From a bacterium (lineage in GTDB: Bacteria; CAIWAD01): a DNA stretch of 64,000 nucleotides. Shown here piece by piece: positions 4,793 to 13,716 of the stretch (position 1 is its first letter; each line of letters starts with the position of its first letter). The DNA lies in NCBI GenBank assembly GCA_030685015.1, contig JAUXWS010000068.1, forward strand, positions 10,102-74,101. The letters run 5' to 3'. The translations under genes were made by a program, and so were the position numbers. The notes under the pieces are model-generated. The model searched no databases. It was not told where the DNA came from and saw nothing but the letters and a program-made list of their open reading frames with translations.

Positions 4793-4826
4793 ATGAAGCC
4801 CCGCGGCAACCGCCACGGGGCTTCAT
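4793..4826 (+). terminator. Perfect 11-bp hairpin after the SGNH gene
   Basis: ATGAAGCCCCG (4793-4803) pairs perfectly with CGGGGCTTCAT (4816-4826) around a 12-base loop, 19 bases after the stop codon. No U-run follows, so intrinsic termination is possible but not assured. Confidence 0.5.
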
Positions 4827-4853
4827 GTTGCCGCCCCGCGAATCGCTTGCGCC

Positions 4854-4901
4854 ATCGGAATCGATATCGGAATCGGGATCGGGATCGGGATCGGGATCGG
4901 G
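4854..4901. repeat. Intergenic ATCGNN hexamer array (8 units)
   Basis: Eight consecutive six-base units begin with ATCG: GA, AT, GA, then five GG endings. It sits between the hairpin and the enoyl-CoA hydratase gene. A related six-unit array with the same ATCGATATCGG core is at 38353-38388. Its function is unknown. Confidence 0.85.
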
Positions 4902-4935
4902 AACGACAACCCCATGATGCCAGACAAGGAGAAGC

Positions 4936-5778
4936 ATGGGAACCACGCTGCTGCTGGAAATCGAAGAGGGCATCGCCCTCCTCACCCTCAACCGTCCGGC
5001 CAGCCTCAACGCGCTCAACCATGCCTTGCTGGGCGAGCTGGAGGAGGCGGTCGTTCAGCTTGAGCAGGACAGCCAACTGCGCGCCGCCGTGCTCATCGGC
5101 GCCGGTGTGAAGGCCTTCGCCGCCGGGGCGGACATCGCCGAACTGGCGGGGCTGGACTCCCGGGGCGCCGCCGGGGTGGCCGCCCGCGGCCAGGGCATCC
5201 TGCGCCGCCTGGAGCGCTTGCCCAAGCCTGTCATTGCCGCCGTCAACGGCTTCGCCCTGGGCGGCGGCTGCGAGCTGGCCATGGCCTGCCATCTGCGCCT
5301 GGCCGCCCCCCACGCCCGCTTCGGTCAACCTGAAGTCAACCTGGGTCTCATTCCGGGATATGGCGGCACCCAGCGCCTGGCGCGTCTGGTGGGACGCGGC
5401 CGGGCCACCGAACTCTGCCTGACCGGAGCCATCATCGGCGCCGAGGAGGCCCTGCGCATGGGCCTCGTCAACCGGGTGGTGACGGCCTGGGCCAAGGACG
5501 CCCAGGGCGAGCCCGTCCGAGACGATAAGGGCCAGCCGGTCTTCGACCGCGAAGCCTTCCTGGAAGCCGCCCTTTCCCTGGCGCGGGACATCCTGGGCAA
5601 GGCGCCGCTGGCCGTGGCGGGCTGTCTGGCGGCCATCGACCGGGGCTTCGACCTGCCCCTCGACGCCGGACTGGCCGTGGAGCGGGACCTCTTCGCCGCC
5701 TGCTTCGGCACGGAGGACATGCGCGAGGGCACCGCAGCCTTCCTGGAGAAGCGGCCGGCGCAGTTCCGGGGCTGCTGA
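4936..5778 (+). CDS. Enoyl-CoA hydratase/isomerase (crotonase) family protein
   Basis: This 280-residue cytosolic crotonase-fold enzyme probably hydrates trans-2-enoyl-CoA in fatty-acid or butyrate metabolism. The oxyanion-hole region is AFAAGADIAEL. The two acidic catalytic positions are present in GGCELAMACHL and QPEVNLGLIPGYGGTQRL. A short acidic/lysine insertion (AKDAQGEPVRDDKGQPV, about residues 192-208) follows LVNRVV; it is seen in some crotonases and lengthens the protein beyond the usual 260. The ATG is preceded by AAGGAGAAGC. It appears to be a single-gene unit between the hexamer array and a long leader region. Confidence 0.88.
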   Translation: MGTTLLLEIEEGIALLTLNRPASLNALNHALLGELEEAVVQLEQDSQLRAAVLIGAGVKAFAAGADIAELAGLDSRGAAGVAARGQGILRRLERLPKPVIAAVNGFALGGGCELAMACHLRLAAPHARFGQPEVNLGLIPGYGGTQRLARLVGRGRATELCLTGAIIGAEEALRMGLVNRVVTAWAKDAQGEPVRDDKGQPVFDREAFLEAALSLARDILGKAPLAVAGCLAAIDRGFDLPLDAGLAVERDLFAACFGTEDMREGTAAFLEKRPAQFRGC

Positions 5779-5878
5779 TCCCCGCCGGCCGGTCGTTCCG
5801 CAGGCCGCTCCGTCCGCCTGTGCCTGGGGCCGCAGCTGCCGGACATGGACCAGGGTCACATGTGGGCATAATGTGCCC

Positions 5879-5907
5879 TTGCATCTCTGGGGACTGGGTG
5901 GTACACT
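5879..5907 (+). promoter_or_regulatory. Putative promoter TTGCAT-N17-TACACT for the porV operon
   Basis: TTGCAT (5879-5884) and TACACT (5902-5907) are spaced by 17 bases. Initiation near 5914 would give a 5' leader of about 268 bases containing the hairpin and terminator described next. An inverted repeat directly abuts the -35 element on its upstream side. Confidence 0.45.
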
Positions 5908-6007
5908 TGGCGGTCCTGTTTCCGGCTCAAGCATCTGTCGCCGGGTGACGATAGACAGGGCACAGACGGGACGCGCCACGTCACACTCGAATGCAAGGAT
6001 CCATATC

Positions 6008-6093
6008 GACGCCTGCCTGAATTGTTGTTTCGGTCTGCGCAAGGTTCGCTGACATGGAGACGATAATTCCCGCAGGCGTCCGTTGCCGGACGC
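6008..6093 (+). promoter_or_regulatory. Candidate attenuator RNA: long hairpin plus alternative helix
   Basis: GACGCCTGC (6008-6016) pairs perfectly with GCAGGCGTC (6072-6080). Inside it 6019-6031 pairs with 6057-6069 (13 bp, three of them G-U), capped by two short helices (6033-6035 with 6051-6053, 6037-6039 with 6047-6049). A competing helix, 6076-6082 with 6087-6093, would break both the outer stem and the following terminator. That exclusivity is the layout of a transcription-attenuating switch. No known riboswitch class was recognised. Confidence 0.5.
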
Positions 6094-6110
6094 AGGTCCG
6101 GTTTTTCTTT
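6086..6110 (+). terminator. Intrinsic terminator inside the porV leader
   Basis: CCGGAC (6086-6091), loop GCAG and GTCCGG (6096-6101) are followed directly by TTTTTCTTT. This is the best U-run terminator on the plus strand in the first 50 kb. It lies 72 bases before the porV-like start rather than after a gene, which suggests conditional read-through control. Confidence 0.75.
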
Positions 6111-6181
6111 ATCCGGGCCGCGTGGCCGGACGACAGCCGGAATGGACGAGGCTGTCACACAAGTTTCCAGGAGGATGCTAC

Positions 6182-7396
6182 ATGAAGCGAGTGACTCTCA
6201 CCGCGGCGGCCCTGGCCATGGTGGCCATGCCTTGGCAACAGGCCCACGCGGTGTCCGAGGCCGCCGTGATCTGGCTCTTGATCAGCCCCGGTTCCCGCCC
6301 CGCCGGCATGGGCGAGGCCTTCGTGGCCCTGGCCGACGACGCCTCCGCCACGTGGTGGAATCCGGCCGGCCTGGCTTTCAGCCAGGGCCGCGACGTCCGC
6401 ATCATGCATTCCGACTGGCTGCCCGCCTTCAACCTGGACGACATCTTCTTCGACTTCGCCGCCTTCTCCTGGCGGGCGGAATCCCTGGGCGGCACGATGG
6501 GCGTCTCCATCATCTATCTCAACGAGGGTGACCAGACCCACACTGGCGAGAACGGCGAGGTGCTGGGCGTCATCACCAGCAAGGAGTACGCCCTGGGCGT
6601 CAGCTACGGCACCAACCTCAATCCGGAGCTGGGCCTGGGCCTCACCGGCAAGCTGATCGTCTCCGACCTGGCCAGCGGCGTCAAGGTGGGCCAGCAGGAA
6701 GCGGGCATGGGCATCTCCTTCGCCGTGGACCTGGGCATGCTCTGGCAGACCCGCCTGCCCTACGCCGACCGGCCCCTCAACCTGGGCTTCAACCTGGCCA
6801 ACATCGGGCCGGAGATCAGCTACGCCGACGAGGCGCAGGCCGATCCCCTCCCCACCAACCTCAAACTGGGCGCGGCGCTCAATGCCTACAACGACCAGCA
6901 CAACGAGGTCAACCTGGTTTTCGACATCAACAAGCAGCTGGTGCACAAGGCGCTGAGCAACCTGACGCGCAAGCAGCTGGACGGCGAAGACGCCTATTGG
7001 AACAACCAGGGACAGCTCACCACCGAGGCCTTCGACAACCAGGGCAATCCCAACTCGCCGGCCTTCGACGCCGAGTACGAGACGGACCCCGTCTTCAAGG
7101 CCATGTTCACCTCCTGGTTCCCGCGCGGTGTGAAGAACGAGCTGCAGAACTACATCTACAACGTGGGCGCCGAGTACTGGTACCGCGGCGAGGCGGGCGG
7201 CCTGGGCAAGACCGCCTTCGGCCTGCGCAGCGGCTACCTGAACGACATGGCGGGCCACATCAAGTCCTACACGCTGGGCATGTCGCTGCTCGTCAACATG
7301 GTCTCCCTGGACTTCAGCTACGAGTTGTCCGCGGACAAGGACAACCCCTCGCCGCGCGACAAGACGATCCGCTACTCCCTGGGCTTCACTTTCTAG
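6182..7396 (+). CDS. porV: PorV/PorQ-like outer-membrane protein of the type IX secretion system
   Basis: This 404-residue predicted beta-barrel protein has a cleavable signal peptide. The mature start has the PorV/UPF0164 pattern: RPAGMGEAFVALADDAS and then WWNPAGLA. In T9SS, PorV shuttles cargo from the translocon to the attachment complex on the cell surface. This role agrees with the T9SS cargo encoded 6 bases downstream and with other cargo in the window. The ATG at 6182 is chosen because AGGAGG ends 7 bases upstream. The family includes paralogues (PorQ and others), so the symbol is tentative. Expression may be gated by the leader attenuator. Confidence 0.75.
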   Translation: MKRVTLTAAALAMVAMPWQQAHAVSEAAVIWLLISPGSRPAGMGEAFVALADDASATWWNPAGLAFSQGRDVRIMHSDWLPAFNLDDIFFDFAAFSWRAESLGGTMGVSIIYLNEGDQTHTGENGEVLGVITSKEYALGVSYGTNLNPELGLGLTGKLIVSDLASGVKVGQQEAGMGISFAVDLGMLWQTRLPYADRPLNLGFNLANIGPEISYADEAQADPLPTNLKLGAALNAYNDQHNEVNLVFDINKQLVHKALSNLTRKQLDGEDAYWNNQGQLTTEAFDNQGNPNSPAFDAEYETDPVFKAMFTSWFPRGVKNELQNYIYNVGAEYWYRGEAGGLGKTAFGLRSGYLNDMAGHIKSYTLGMSLLVNMVSLDFSYELSADKDNPSPRDKTIRYSLGFTF

Positions 7397-7402
7397 GCGG
7401 AC

Positions 7403-10400
7403 ATGAGGGGTCTAGGACCGGCTCGACGCATCCCCATCGTCCTGGGACCGCTGTTGGCGGTCCCAGGGCTGCTGCTGGCCCTGGCCGGAACGGCCCGGGG
7501 GGAAAGCCTGCGCCTGCTGGCCTTGCGCGTGGATTTCCAGCCCGACACCCTGGAGACGACCACGGGGGACGGCCGCTTCGAGAGCGCCTTCCAGTTCTCC
7601 CGTCGGTGGACGATTGATCCCCTGCCGCATGATTCCCTCTACTTCGATTCGCACCTGCGCTTCCTGTCCCACTGGTACGGCCGCGCCTCCCAGGGCGGGC
7701 TGGACCTGGAGTGGGAGATCTGGCCGCGGGGCGGGCAAGCGGCCTACCGCCTGCCCCACCCCATGTGGCACTACCACTGGAACCAGTCCCGCGACCGCAC
7801 CGACGAGCAACTGGCCGAGCTCTTCCGCCACAGCCTGGAGGCCGCCGACGCCGACCCCGCGCTCGCTTTCTTCAACGAGGCGGGAGAACGGCGCTTCCAC
7901 AGCGTGATCATCTTCCACGCCGGCGTGGGGCAGGATTTCGGCGAGGACGACACCCCCCACGACATCCCCTCCGCCTGGCTGGGGGCGCTGGACGGACAGA
8001 CGATGCCGCATGAGACGACGGTGGGCGACGAGACGACGGGCTTGAGCTGGACCGTGCGCCAGGGCCTTATCCTGCCGGAGGGGGAGAACCACGAAAACTA
8101 CCAGCACGGCCTGGCCGGCCTGCTGGTTCTGCAGTTCGGGCACGAACTGGGCCTGCCCAACCTGTACGACGGCCGCACCGGCCGCAGCGTGATCGGCAAA
8201 TGGGGCCTGATGGATCAGGGCAGCGCCAACTACAGCGGCCTGTTGCCCGCCCCCCTCGACGCCTGGAGCCGCCTGCACCTGGGCTGGGGCAGCGTGGAGG
8301 TCGTGGCCGCGGCGCGGGACAGCGTGCAGGTGGCGGCGCCCGACGGCCCCGCCCTGCTGCCCCGCATGGTGCGCATCCCCCTGAACGACGACGAGTACTA
8401 CCTGGTGGAGTACCGCCGCCGGCAGGAGGAGGGCCGCAACTGGACCTGGGCGCGGGACCGCGCCGGCCGCTGGGCCCGGCTGGACAGCTCCTTCACCATC
8501 AGCTTCCAGGACACCCTGGGCCAGCCCGGCGACAGCACGGGCGTCTTCATCGAGGCGGGCAATCTGGACTTCGACTTGCCGGGCAGCGGCTTGCTGGTCT
8601 GGCACGTGGACGAGCGCGCCGCCACGCCGGAGGCCATCGCCGCCAACACGGTGAACGACGATCCCCGGCGTCGGGGGGTGGATCTGGTGGAGGGGGATGG
8701 CGTGCAGGACATCGGGCGCGACTACGGGTTCTTCTCCATGCGCGGCTCGGTGGCCCTGGGCGGCAACGAGGATCCCTGGCAGCAGCCCAACACGGGCTGG
8801 ACCCTGGCCAACCCGCACTATTCCTACCGCAACGTGAGCCTGGCCTGGGACACGGAGCCTCCCACCAGCACCAACGACGGCCTCTTCACCGGCCTGCGCC
8901 TGGACGGCTTCAGCGGTCCTGACGGGCAGGGCGTCTGGCCCGACCACGGGCGCTTCAACCTTTCCTGGGATCTGCGTCCGGCCGCCCATGGCCTTTCCCT
9001 GACACCGCCCCTGGAGGGGACGGCCGCCGTGGATGTCATGTTGCAAGCCTTCTGCTGGCCTGAGGACGGGGAAAGCCTGGCGGCCTGCGTGGCCTTGCGC
9101 GACGGACTGGGCCGCTCCTACGGCCGGGTGCTGGGCGGCGACCTGGCCACCTGGCCCCGGGCCGACGGCCATGCCAGCCTGCTGCCCACCGACTGGCAGG
9201 ACGGATTGGACGGCCTCTGGGCTTTGGAGGACGGCGGCGAGGCGCGCCTGCTGGCCTGGCGCGGCGACAGCCTGGCCCTCTTCCGTCCCATGGGCCTGCC
9301 GCGTCTTTTCACCACCGAGCGCTTCTGGGCCGGCGAGCAGGGGATCCAGGCCGTGCTGCCCACGGGAGGAGGCGCCCCGGCCGCGGGCGACCCCTGGCGC
9401 GGGCGCCAACCCGGCCTCTTCGTCGTGAGCGGCCAGATGCTGCTGCGGCTTGATCCGGCGGCGCTCACCGTGGTCCAGGTGCTGGGCTCGGTCCCGGCGG
9501 GCGAGCTGCGCCTGGTGGAGGTGGAGGACGACAGCGGCTACCCCGGCCTGCTGGTGAAAGGCGACCACCCCCGCGTCTATCTGGCCGGGCGCAATGTGCT
9601 GGGCGAGGGTGGGACACTCCCCGCCGGCGCGGACCTGCTGGCCCTGGATGCCGTGTGGGAGGCCCGGGTTCCCGAGTCCACCGACACGCTGGAGGCCACC
9701 GCCCTGCTGCGCGATGAGGATGGGGCCAGCCTCTTCCGGGGATCGCGGCTCCTGCGACGCCTCGATTGCCCGAACCTGTCGGTGCGGCCCCTCCAGTTCG
9801 GACCCGATCCGGGGCTGGAGCTGGCCTTCCAGCTGCCGGGGGGCGGCCTGCGGATCTACAGCCAAGCGGGCACCCTCCTGGCCCAGCTGGCGCTGGAGGA
9901 CGGTCATGGCGCCCCCTTGACCGGATCGCGGACGGACGAGGGCGGCCTCGCCGTGATGGCCGCCTCCTCCGATCGGTTGTCGGGCCTCGAAGCTGCCGGG
10001 CTGGCGCCTCCCACCTGGCCCCGCATCATGCCGCCCCTGGTGGACGGCCCGCTGCTGCTGCCCGAGCTGGGGCTGGTGCTGGGCCTGCGCCGGGACGGCC
10101 GCCTGGCGGCCTGGGAAGCGGAGCTGGACCACCCGGTGTGGACCCAGCGCCGGGGCCTGGACGGCCGCGGTCGACCCTGGTCCAGCGGCGCAACCCACCA
10201 GGAGGCGGTCCGGATCGTGCGGGAGAACCCCGCCTTCGTCTGGCCCAACCCGGCCTCGACCGTGGCCCACCTGCGCTTCCTCCTGGGGGCGCCGGCCCGG
10301 GTCACCCTGCACGCCTACGACACGGCGGGGGATCGCGTCGCCAGCCTGGGCGCCTCCTTCGACCGGGCGGGTGAGCACGAGCTGAGCTGGGACCTGCGCG

Positions 10401-10489
10401 GCGTCGCCCCGGGCGCCTACTTCTGCCTTCTGCAGGCGGAGGGCGGCGAGTCCTGGACGAGGCGCGTCAAGCTGGCGGTGATCCGATGA
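7403..10489 (+). CDS. M6 metalloprotease-like T9SS cargo with degenerate zinc motif
   Basis: This 1028-residue secreted protein has a signal peptide, an M6 (immune inhibitor A-like) domain at about residues 30-330, a long beta-rich middle, and a T9SS type-A sorting domain (about 945-1028, beginning FVWPNPAST). The family's HEFGH...GLPDLYD motif reads L243-Q244-F-G-H247-ELGLPNLYD here. The first zinc histidine and the catalytic glutamate are therefore replaced, while the flanking GKWGLMDQG and DAWSRLHLGW match M6. Proteolysis is unlikely; binding or a structural surface role is inferred. It overlaps the next gene by ATGA and follows porV closely. Confidence 0.75.
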   Translation: MRGLGPARRIPIVLGPLLAVPGLLLALAGTARGESLRLLALRVDFQPDTLETTTGDGRFESAFQFSRRWTIDPLPHDSLYFDSHLRFLSHWYGRASQGGLDLEWEIWPRGGQAAYRLPHPMWHYHWNQSRDRTDEQLAELFRHSLEAADADPALAFFNEAGERRFHSVIIFHAGVGQDFGEDDTPHDIPSAWLGALDGQTMPHETTVGDETTGLSWTVRQGLILPEGENHENYQHGLAGLLVLQFGHELGLPNLYDGRTGRSVIGKWGLMDQGSANYSGLLPAPLDAWSRLHLGWGSVEVVAAARDSVQVAAPDGPALLPRMVRIPLNDDEYYLVEYRRRQEEGRNWTWARDRAGRWARLDSSFTISFQDTLGQPGDSTGVFIEAGNLDFDLPGSGLLVWHVDERAATPEAIAANTVNDDPRRRGVDLVEGDGVQDIGRDYGFFSMRGSVALGGNEDPWQQPNTGWTLANPHYSYRNVSLAWDTEPPTSTNDGLFTGLRLDGFSGPDGQGVWPDHGRFNLSWDLRPAAHGLSLTPPLEGTAAVDVMLQAFCWPEDGESLAACVALRDGLGRSYGRVLGGDLATWPRADGHASLLPTDWQDGLDGLWALEDGGEARLLAWRGDSLALFRPMGLPRLFTTERFWAGEQGIQAVLPTGGGAPAAGDPWRGRQPGLFVVSGQMLLRLDPAALTVVQVLGSVPAGELRLVEVEDDSGYPGLLVKGDHPRVYLAGRNVLGEGGTLPAGADLLALDAVWEARVPESTDTLEATALLRDEDGASLFRGSRLLRRLDCPNLSVRPLQFGPDPGLELAFQLPGGGLRIYSQAGTLLAQLALEDGHGAPLTGSRTDEGGLAVMAASSDRLSGLEAAGLAPPTWPRIMPPLVDGPLLLPELGLVLGLRRDGRLAAWEAELDHPVWTQRRGLDGRGRPWSSGATHQEAVRIVRENPAFVWPNPASTVAHLRFLLGAPARVTLHAYDTAGDRVASLGASFDRAGEHELSWDLRGVAPGAYFCLLQAEGGESWTRRVKLAVIR

Positions 10490-13400
10490 TCGCCCTCGTC
10501 CAGCTGCGGCGCCTGTGGCTGCCGCTCCTGCTCGCCCTGGCGGCCAGGATCGCCGCCCAGCCCGTCGCCTACAACCACCCGGACCTGGAGTGGCACTCCA
10601 GCGAGCTGGCCCACTGCACCATCCATGTCCACGAGGGGCTGGAGGACCTCGGTCTGGTGGCCGCCCAGATCATGGAGGAGATCTGGGATCCCATCACCTC
10701 CCTCTACGGCTATGAGCCCGACACCCGCGTCCACCTCATCTTCTACGACACGGACGATTACTCCAACGGCGGCGCCTACTTCTACAACAACAAGATCATC
10801 ATCTGGGCGACCAGCCTTGACTTCGACCTGCGCGGCCAGCACAACTGGCTGCGCAACGTGCTCACCCACGAGTTCACCCACATCGTCCAACTGGGGGCCG
10901 CCCGCAAGTTCAGCCGCCAAATGCCCTTCCTCTACTTCCAGATGATGGGCTACGAGCCGGAGAAGCGGGACGACGTGGTGCAGGGCTTTCCCAACCGGGT
11001 CGCCTCCTATCCCCTGGCCGGCACGATGGTGCCCGCCTGGTTCGCCGAAGGCACGGCCCAGCGCATGGTCGAAGGCCACCGCTACGACTTCTGGGACAGC
11101 CACCGCGACATGGTCCTGCGCGACCGCGTGCTCCACGGCGCTCTCTTCGATCTGGACGAGATGGCCTCCTTCGACAAGAACTCGGTGGGGGGCGAATCCG
11201 TCTACAACCAGGGCTTCAGTCTCGTCAACTGGATCGCGGAGCGGCATGGGGACGAAAGCCTGCGCCGCCTGTCGGAGGAGCTGGCGCGGCCCCACCGCCT
11301 CTCCATGGCCACGGCGATGGAGCGGGTGCTGGGTGTGGACGGCCACGAGCTGTGGCGCCGCTGGAAGGCCGACCTGGAGGAGGACTATGCCCGGCAGTTG
11401 GCCGGCGTGGACGGCCGGGGCGTGGAAGGGCGCCTCGTCTCGACCAGCCGCGTGGTCAGTCAGGCGGGGGGCGGCCGCGACGAGCACCGCGAGGAGCTGC
11501 GCACTCCGCCGACCAGCCTGGCGCCCCACCTGCCGGCAGGCAGCTGCTGCGCGGGCCTGGGCGCGGTCTGCGCCTTCCCCGAGGCGGCCGATGAGCTGGG
11601 CCCCACCAACAACATCAATCCCCGGGTCTCACCGGACGGGCGCCATGTCTACTACGCCTCCAACGGGGATGCCGACTGGCTGGGCATGACCGACCTCTGG
11701 CGCTACGACCGCCAGGCCGGCACCTGCGAGAAAGTGCTGCCCAACATCCGCGGCCCCTTCGCCCTGAGCCCCGACGGAGCCAGCGTCATCTTCTCGCGCA
11801 CCAGCCCGGTGGACAAGCTGGGCCGCCATTACCGCGACCTCTACCAGTACTGGTTCGAGGAGAAAGTGACGCGCCGCCTGACCGAGGGGGCGCGCCTCAG
11901 CCAGCCTGACCTCGCCCCCGACGGCCGCCGATTGGTGGCCGTGCAGAACGGCGGCGGCTCCACCTGGCCCGTCCTCTTCGAGCTGGACAGCCTGGACGGC
12001 CCGGCCTGGCAGGCCCTGTCCAAGCGCCAACGCAAGGCGGCGCCGCGGCTGCAGGCCCGTCGGCTGGGGCAGGAGCCCTACGGCAGCCAGTTCTTCCAGC
12101 CGCGCTGGGACCCGCGCGGCACCCGCATCGTGGCCGCCCGCGCCTGGGGTCATGGCCGCGACCTGGTGGAGCTGGACCCCGCCACCGGCGCCACGCGCGA
12201 GCTGCTGGCCACACAGCTGGACGAGCGGCAGGCCACCTTCAGCGCGGACGGACGGTGGCTGGTCTACGCCCAGGACGAGGGCGGCATCTTCAACATCTGG
12301 CGCCTGGACCTGGAGGAGGGGCGACGCGAGCGCCTGACGGCGGTGACGGGCGGCGCCTTCATGCCGACCCTGGCCGGCGACACGCTCTACTACAGCGGCT
12401 ACCGGGACCAGGGCTTCCGCCTCTTCGAACTGGCCCCCCTGCACGACCAGCAGGACGCCCCGGCGGCCCTGCGCCCGCACTACGCGGAGGCGATCCCGCC
12501 CCTGGGCACGGCGGACCAGGATCCGGCCCCCCGGACCTGGCAGCCCCTCCGCACGGAGTTCGAGAAACCCTTCTGGATCCCGCGCCTGGTGGTGGATGAC
12601 GGCGAGCTGAAGCCCGGCCTCTTCTTCCTCAACATGGATGTCTTCGAGAAGGTGGAGCTGAGCGGCGGCGTGGCGGCGGCCCGTCTCACCAACATGGACC
12701 TCTTCGCCTCGGCCAGCGCCGCGCTGGGCAAGGGCGCGGTCTTCACCGAGCTTTACGGCATGACGCGGGACCACGACGAGCGCTTCGATGATCCCTTCGT
12801 CATCGTGGGCGAGACGCCCGACGGCGCCCCCCGCTTCGACCAGTACGGCGTCCGCTACCGCTTCAGCCTGGCCGAGGGCCACCTGGGCTGGCGCCGTCGC
12901 CTGAGCGACGTGCTCAGTGTCGAGGGCGCCGTCAGCCTGGCCAACTACAAGGCCTCCTACAAGCGGCCGCCCCTCACTGTCAACTACGACTACTACAAGG
13001 GGACGGGCCTGCGCCTCCGCTTCGACCACCAGCTGGAGGCCGGGCGGCGGGTGGACGACTTCATCAACCCCCGCGGGCGCCGCTGGGCCAGCCTGGAGCT
13101 GCGCCAGCACTGGGACCGCCTCATCGACGGCTTCGAGGTCAGCTCGGCCGGCCTGCTCGAGGAGGTCTACACGCCCGCCACCTTCCTCGAAGGGGAGCTG
13201 GCCCTGGGCCGCAGTTGGGCCCTGCCCTTCTGGCCGGCCCTGTCGCTCACCGTGGACGGCAAGGCGGCGCTCATCGGCGACGCCGAGGTGGACGACTTCT
13301 TCCACACCTACGCCGGCGGGCTGATGGGCCTGCGCGGCTACTCCTACTACAGCCTGGGCGGGGTGCGAAAGGCGCTGGGGCACGTGCGGCTGGGCTTTCC

Positions 13401-13716
13401 CATCATCCGCCGCGTGGGCTGGCCGCTGGGACCTTGGCATGTCAAGCGCCTCTACGGCAGCCTCAATGCCGGCGCCGGCGACGCCTGGGGCGGCCGCGGC
13501 CCCGCCTTCGACCTCAAGCGCGAGGTGGGCGGCGACCTCAAGCTCTTCCTCACCTCGTGGGCCATGCTGCCCACCGCCCTGACCGTGGGCGCCGCCTACG
13601 GCCTGGACGAGTTCCGCGTGCCGGCGCTGGATCCGGGTGAATTCTACGGCCGGGAGTGGCGCTGGTACGCCACCCTCCTTTTCGAATTCGATGTCTTCCA
13701 GGAGCGGATACCATGA
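10486..13716 (+). CDS. Gluzincin protease - TolB-like propeller - BamA-like barrel fusion
   Basis: The 1076-residue envelope protein has three parts. Residues about 25-320 form a peptidase-MA-like gluzincin with H128-E-F-T-H132 and the third ligand E188 in WFAEGTAQ. Residues about 360-690 contain PD40/TolB-type propeller repeats (NPRVSPDGRHVYYAS, FALSPDGASVIFS, ATFSADGRWLVYAQ). Residues about 750-1076 are strand-rich and resemble the surface-antigen (BamA) barrel (GLRGYSYYSLGG). It is probably exported and anchored in the outer membrane. A near equal-length paralogue is at 58495-61722. It overlaps both neighbours by ATGA, so it is co-translated with the M6-like cargo. Substrates are unknown. 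Confidence 0.78.
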   Translation: MIALVQLRRLWLPLLLALAARIAAQPVAYNHPDLEWHSSELAHCTIHVHEGLEDLGLVAAQIMEEIWDPITSLYGYEPDTRVHLIFYDTDDYSNGGAYFYNNKIIIWATSLDFDLRGQHNWLRNVLTHEFTHIVQLGAARKFSRQMPFLYFQMMGYEPEKRDDVVQGFPNRVASYPLAGTMVPAWFAEGTAQRMVEGHRYDFWDSHRDMVLRDRVLHGALFDLDEMASFDKNSVGGESVYNQGFSLVNWIAERHGDESLRRLSEELARPHRLSMATAMERVLGVDGHELWRRWKADLEEDYARQLAGVDGRGVEGRLVSTSRVVSQAGGGRDEHREELRTPPTSLAPHLPAGSCCAGLGAVCAFPEAADELGPTNNINPRVSPDGRHVYYASNGDADWLGMTDLWRYDRQAGTCEKVLPNIRGPFALSPDGASVIFSRTSPVDKLGRHYRDLYQYWFEEKVTRRLTEGARLSQPDLAPDGRRLVAVQNGGGSTWPVLFELDSLDGPAWQALSKRQRKAAPRLQARRLGQEPYGSQFFQPRWDPRGTRIVAARAWGHGRDLVELDPATGATRELLATQLDERQATFSADGRWLVYAQDEGGIFNIWRLDLEEGRRERLTAVTGGAFMPTLAGDTLYYSGYRDQGFRLFELAPLHDQQDAPAALRPHYAEAIPPLGTADQDPAPRTWQPLRTEFEKPFWIPRLVVDDGELKPGLFFLNMDVFEKVELSGGVAAARLTNMDLFASASAALGKGAVFTELYGMTRDHDERFDDPFVIVGETPDGAPRFDQYGVRYRFSLAEGHLGWRRRLSDVLSVEGAVSLANYKASYKRPPLTVNYDYYKGTGLRLRFDHQLEAGRRVDDFINPRGRRWASLELRQHWDRLIDGFEVSSAGLLEEVYTPATFLEGELALGRSWALPFWPALSLTVDGKAALIGDAEVDDFFHTYAGGLMGLRGYSYYSLGGVRKALGHVRLGFPIIRRVGWPLGPWHVKRLYGSLNAGAGDAWGGRGPAFDLKREVGGDLKLFLTSWAMLPTALTVGAAYGLDEFRVPALDPGEFYGREWRWYATLLFEFDVFQERIP

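Follow-up and report, generated by a model that had tools for sequence, protein, structure and literature searches.

A candidate transcription attenuator in the leaders of porV and of other type IX secretion and surface-polysaccharide operons

The leader of porV was analyzed in a 64,000-nucleotide stretch of bacterial DNA (contig JAUXWS010000068.1 of assembly GCA_030685015.1), hereafter the window. Judging from sequence comparison, it quite probably represents a cis-acting transcription attenuator of a class that is so far undescribed and acts on type IX secretion and surface-polysaccharide genes. The structure of the element, its conservation, the placement of its terminator directly before porV and its recurrence before other operons were established by comparing genomes.

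The porV leader of the window

The 73-nt hairpin of the leader is a real RNA structure. Its outer stem (P1) and inner helix (P2), the U-run terminator and a third helix were all found exactly where a sequence-only reading of the same DNA had placed them (Table 1). That reading had judged the stem and the terminator to be compatible, and RNAfold did place both in one fold of positions 5998–6125 (−58.7 kcal/mol); 200 shuffles of this segment gave −41.9 ± 3.7 kcal/mol (z = −4.59 for the native sequence), and none of them was as good. A terminator scan of positions 5000–7000 on both strands returned the one at 6086–6110 as its sole match; 0.7 matches were expected by chance at that setting, so its significance comes from the comparison with relatives. 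A promoter scan with strict thresholds had no match. The putative promoter proposed earlier nevertheless has a layout and spacing common to all four family members compared (TTGCAT-N17-TAnnnT), and transcription would start near position 5914. Promoter-like box and terminator go with a structured body of about 195 nt. No conserved promoter was found in the spacer 6111–6181.

Table 1. Features of the porV leader and the downstream operon (coordinates in the window)
Feature	Position	Strand	Evidence
Promoter-like box TTGCAT-N17-TACACT	5879–5907	+	−35/spacing/−10 layout kept in 4/4 family members
Leader 5′ part, poorly conserved	5908–6003	+	36–52% identity within the genus
Outer stem P1, 5′ arm GACGCCTGC	6008–6016	+	9 bp, perfect, with 6072–6080 (read from sequence); both-side changes at 6/8 comparable pairs in G003
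Inner helix P2, 5′ arm GAATTGTTGTTTC, near-invariant	6019–6031	+	13 pairs with 6057–6069, 3 of these G-U (read from sequence); family comparison
Apical part, variable, much longer in G003	6032–6056	+	Family comparison
Inner helix P2, 3′ arm GAGACGATAATTC, near-invariant	6057–6069	+	Family comparison
Outer stem P1, 3′ arm GCAGGCGTC; overlaps third helix	6072–6080	+	Sequence, fold, comparison
Third helix (antiterminator-like), 5′ arm GCGTCCG	6076–6082	+	7 bp with CGGACGC 6087–6093 (read from sequence)
Intrinsic terminator CCGGAC-GCAG-GTCCGG + U run	6086–6110	+	Arms 6086–6091 and 6096–6101, then TTTTTCTTT 6102–6110; 85% identical within the genus; stem invariant in G003
Spacer with AGGAGG ribosome site	6111–6181	+	Unconserved, 36–38% identity within the genus
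porV, first gene of the operon	6182–7396	+	PF19572 PorV, 4e-27; NF033709 PorV family, 261 bits (cut-off 90)
M6-like protein, T9SS-related	7403–10489	+	NF052323, under its cut-off
PD40 beta-propeller/peptidase-MA-like protein	10486–13716	+	Domain match

The product of porV scored 214 bits against the PorV equivalog NF033710, under the cut-off of 250; further envelope genes were found 3′ of porV. A search of the window leader against Rfam gave nothing at the gathering score and nothing of note at permissive E-values, the weak matches being rejected as noise, in line with the earlier statement that no known riboswitch class was recognised. Elsewhere in the window, at approximately 4816–4910, a simple-sequence tract of six-base units, reading DPDPDPDP on the minus strand, lies between the GDSL-lipase and enoyl-CoA hydratase genes.

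The earlier reading saw in the third helix a competitor of both the outer stem and the terminator. The fold containing this helix was less stable, by 6–14 kcal/mol, than hairpin and terminator together, and the helix is negligible at equilibrium in the window because the P1–P2 hairpin is so stable. Its pairing, compared with permuted arms, gave P of 0.01–0.03 within the genus (single-genome values that are mutually non-independent) and of 0.09–0.27 in G003, a relative of another genus. Competition by a third helix found statistical support in the porV leaders of another phylum, described below, and is weak in the lineage of the window. The window alone supports a terminated ground state and, weakly, a built-in switch. 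Such a ground state calls for an activator, unless read-through is only partial. The direction assigned earlier, an OFF-switch that ends transcription on binding, does not follow from the fold, the stable form already being the terminated one.

Conservation within the family and in other phyla

The element was found once per genome, directly before porV, in all four genomes of the family: that of the window (G000), two of the same genus (G001 and G002) and one of another genus (G003). The promoter-like boxes of the relatives were TTGCAT-17-TATGCT, TTGCGA-17-TACACT and TTGCAT-17-TAGAAT in G001, G002 and G003, respectively. Within the genus, the hairpin was 73–90% identical and the terminator was similarly conserved, in contrast to the upstream leader and the spacer between terminator and porV (Table 1). 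Compensatory changes in homologous leaders, which the sequence-only reading had set as a test, were present: the outer stem of G003 was CTTGTTCC/GGAACAAG instead of GACGCCTGC/GCAGGCGTC, with the comparable P1 pairs not changed on both sides (2/8) being unchanged. P2 of G003 had two double changes at its base, the remainder, TTGTTGTTT/GAGACGATAA with three G-U pairs, being invariant; its apical part was unrelated in sequence to those of the others. A single-base indel lies between the hairpins of G000 and G002; on this ground and on that of the covariation, a coding function of the hairpin was rejected. The gene upstream of the element in G001 differs from that in G000 and G003; the element therefore stays with porV, not with the upstream neighbor.

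A covariance model built from the four family sequences only (R1) found in 290 genomes no convincing site besides the one copy per family genome, always at porV. A scan of 84,980 genomes for the inner-helix pattern returned 19 stretches, three of them the known relatives; the remaining ones were rejected as homologues, their number fitting a rough estimate of about 14 chance matches. In a Flavobacteriaceae locus (L048 7932–7968, minus strand), a TTGTTGTTTTGGTC/GACCGAGACGATAA hairpin has a core identical to the window inner helix and four extra complementary pairs; the count of such matches fits chance.

Leaders with the same layout were found before distant PorV orthologues. In the phylum of G049, leaders were collected from the 77 of 82 genomes with a PorV match, and 60 of these 77 had a CCGAAT/ATTCGG-type terminator at most 150 nt before the porV ATG (distance 24–96 nt, median 48), compared with a mean of 0.65/77 in Markov controls and 34/2742 among other windows of the same loci. 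The terminator was preceded by a conserved hairpin whose 5′ side carries GGAGnnnGCCTATnnAAGTTCGTTAAAGG and whose 3′ side carries ACCTTTAACGAACTT and ATAGGC, with about 35–100 variable nucleotides between. Over P1, P2 and the terminator of 28 leaders, with the apical part excised and with the leaders chosen partly by P2 pairing, which favors P2, both-side changes were found at 13 of 27 pairs against 6.2 ± 1.4 after shuffling (0/500); sliding the partner strands abolished the pairing. A TTGAC/TTGAT-type promoter was located upstream in 39 of the 50 leaders with a GCYTAT box, at a median of 30 nt before the box. A similar terminator was present in about half of the leaders examined from the phylum of G057, and the hairpin was also found in G447. 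No Rfam family matched the leaders of this larger family. At another locus (L228 4669–4744, minus strand), the suhB/mmgR RNA family matched below threshold (31.5 bits, cut-off 41). The genomes compared are almost all draft assemblies; in the covariance models apical loops were excised and E-values are rough, and strict filters were used in broad searches.

By their pairing, several helices of the larger family resemble those that compete in an attenuator. The 48 nt preceding the terminator paired with the terminator loop of their own genome at a mean of −16.7 kcal/mol, against −13.1 ± 0.64 kcal/mol with the loops of other families (0/200), although the effect was not seen in every family. The P1 5′ strand and the segment after P2 also paired better than across families (0/200). 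In several families, an apical antiterminator pairing with the linker and the first terminator bases was obtained at 1/200 versus cross-family pairing, where the apical segments GGTCTGG, GGTTTGGT, GGTTGGGTGG and GGTTTTGAATACA complement CCAGACC, ACCAAACC, CCACCGCAACC and TGTATTCAAGACC. The helix between linker and terminator loop could alternatively be a pseudoknot with the terminator. The UUCG/CGAA core of P2 and the CGAA/UUCG core of the terminator are interchangeable, both in the window (6029–6033 and 6086–6090) and in the larger family. In principle, this would let four strands exchange partners in the manner of the trp leader.

Regarding other operons, a model trained on porV leaders only (R2) detected second copies within the same phylum before a PorV-paralogue operon in three genomes (62–76 bits); this operon encodes a lipoprotein, a propeller protein with a weak PorZ/PorU tail match and a PorV-family protein. 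Another copy (58 bits) precedes a nucleotide-sugar dehydrogenase gene followed by that of a polysaccharide-export protein. A weaker one (34 bits) lies before the gene of a C25 peptidase that is PorU-like and carries a T9SS sorting tail, and a match to the terminator only (32 bits) before a PorU-like sortase. In 386 broadly sampled genomes, the single match at E ≤ 1e-4 (44 bits) lies before dTDP-sugar genes, with P2 intact, in a genome outside the set from the phylum of G049. Leader RNAs of the larger family were seen before polysaccharide operons at L227 1570–1729 and L231 1501–1655; the latter begins GGGGGTAGCCTAT, recalling the ops element.

The window element and the larger family have an identical layout and precede the same gene, and by eye GCCTGGCTGAGTTGTTGTTTCGG aligns with GCCTATACAAGTTCGTTAAAGG and ACGATAATTCCCAGGC with ACGAACTTTGTATAGGC. 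Run with filters off on 94.5 kb, R2 gave only two matches at E ≤ 10 (14.6 bits, E 0.5, and 9.8 bits); both lie on porV leaders from the window's genus and have terminator-driven scores; similarly, most R1 matches in the other phylum end at the same terminator, which drives their scores. The link between the two by mutual model searches is weak; common descent seems likely. More tentatively, at somewhat less than even chances, a single undescribed class of regulatory RNA, ancient in origin, would gate type IX secretion (PorV, PorV paralogues and PorU-like peptidases) and surface polysaccharides across several phyla, with a divergent member in the window.

Proposed mechanism and alternative explanations

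After initiation at the promoter-like box, the leader would fold into the P1–P2 hairpin, and RNA polymerase would stop at the terminator except where an alternative fold of the nascent leader is maintained. In the larger family, either of two pairings would couple hairpin and terminator by strand exchange: the terminator loop may be bound by the segment that follows the hairpin, or the 5′ arm of the terminator by an apical segment. The likeliest role of P2 is that of a site recognised by a trans-acting factor, more probably an RNA-binding protein than a small molecule; conservation in the helix rather than in loops would favor a protein over a metabolite. This factor would set read-through at porV and, for certain lineages, also at further operons of type IX secretion and surface polysaccharides. 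We infer that termination and read-through occur in the cell, and likewise the factor and a direction of control. The attenuator proposed as possible by the earlier reading is partly supported: the leader RNA before porV is conserved and covarying and has a promoter-like box and an intrinsic terminator; the built-in switch is the part that proved weak in the window's lineage.

A metabolite riboswitch, in which P1–P2 would be the aptamer and the ligand would set termination, is a special case of such an attenuator. Its expression-platform geometry is present, and one element is common to several operons; however, the conservation lies mainly in a paired helix with a variable apical part, few conserved unpaired bases are available for a pocket, and no Rfam class matches. 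We consider a riboswitch unlikely.

EAR, found in a polysaccharide operon, and HK022 put are conserved RNAs that help the polymerase pass terminators. A hairpin of this kind, itself acting on the polymerase to promote read-through, would suit a helix that is nearly invariant and lies between promoter and terminator in the leaders of secretion and polysaccharide operons. RNAs of this type ought to manage without the strand-exchange helices that covary here, and this explanation is improbable.

The hairpin might also be read by a specialised NusG paralogue of the RfaH/LoaP type, with processive antitermination as the outcome. A precedent is LoaP: this NusG paralogue binds to a hairpin in the leader RNA of the dfn operon, whose terminator it overcomes (PMC12691694). 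Polysaccharide operons are, moreover, among the targets here. However, LoaP recognises a small UNCG hairpin (PMC12691694), which P2 does not resemble, and one NusG-domain protein only was found in each of G000, G002, G003, G277, G447, G328 and other carriers. We failed to detect a specialised paralogue (PF02357) in the draft genomes G000, G002 and G003 at the sensitivity used; NusG paralogues are present in some other carriers of the element. A specialised NusG is unlikely as the universal reader, and the probability of this mechanism is rated as very low.

Just as low is the chance of a separate small-RNA gene that adjoins porV by accident. Promoter-like box, structured body and terminator would all be expected of such a gene, but the short distance from terminator to ATG in the 60 leaders leaves little room for another promoter, that of porV, in the closest cases; additionally, the spacer is unconserved. 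That the element recurs before other operons speaks against a small-RNA gene linked to porV and in favor of a common control of secretion and surface sugars.

Leader-peptide attenuation by the ribosome can practically be set aside: a short frame in G000, ATGCAAGGATCCATATCGACGCCTGCCTGA, overlaps the P1 5′ arm, but it is absent from G001, G002 and G003, and the single-base indel between G000 and G002 falls in the hairpin. Least credible is the terminator of the upstream gene with an incidental inverted repeat, for although a same-strand gene ends at 5778, the conserved promoter-like box lies between, the upstream gene of G001 differs and the helices covary.

Relation to known systems

In known systems, type IX cargo is anchored to surface polysaccharides. 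An element that is conserved upstream of porV in most members sampled from one phylum, and that also precedes other type IX and polysaccharide operons, would provide a handle on how secretion capacity is matched to the anchoring sugar. No RNA-level control of type IX secretion was found in the literature searched. As a new RNA class, the element would have a signal that can be sought; if a single ancient class is indeed involved, that signal would feed into type IX secretion at the level of RNA.

The candidate attenuator resembles transcription-attenuation riboswitches and protein-responsive attenuators in that a leader hairpin shares a strand with a terminator-competing helix before the first gene of an operon; it differs from them by the absence of an Rfam match and by conservation residing in a helix. 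The ops element of RfaH-controlled (JUMPStart) polysaccharide operons acts as a pause element in the DNA and is read by RfaH. Polysaccharide operons are likewise among the targets here, and one leader starts with the ops-like GGGGGTAGCCTAT, whereas a long covarying hairpin is present and no paralogue was found in several carriers. LoaP-dfn (PMC12691694) also combines a leader RNA hairpin with an intrinsic terminator before an operon; the hairpin there is a small UNCG one, in contrast to the long P1–P2 with a variable apical part in carriers, in several of which no NusG paralogue was found. With EAR and HK022 put, finally, the element shares its nature as a conserved RNA, and with EAR the polysaccharide-operon setting; unlike them, it has covarying strand-exchange helices.
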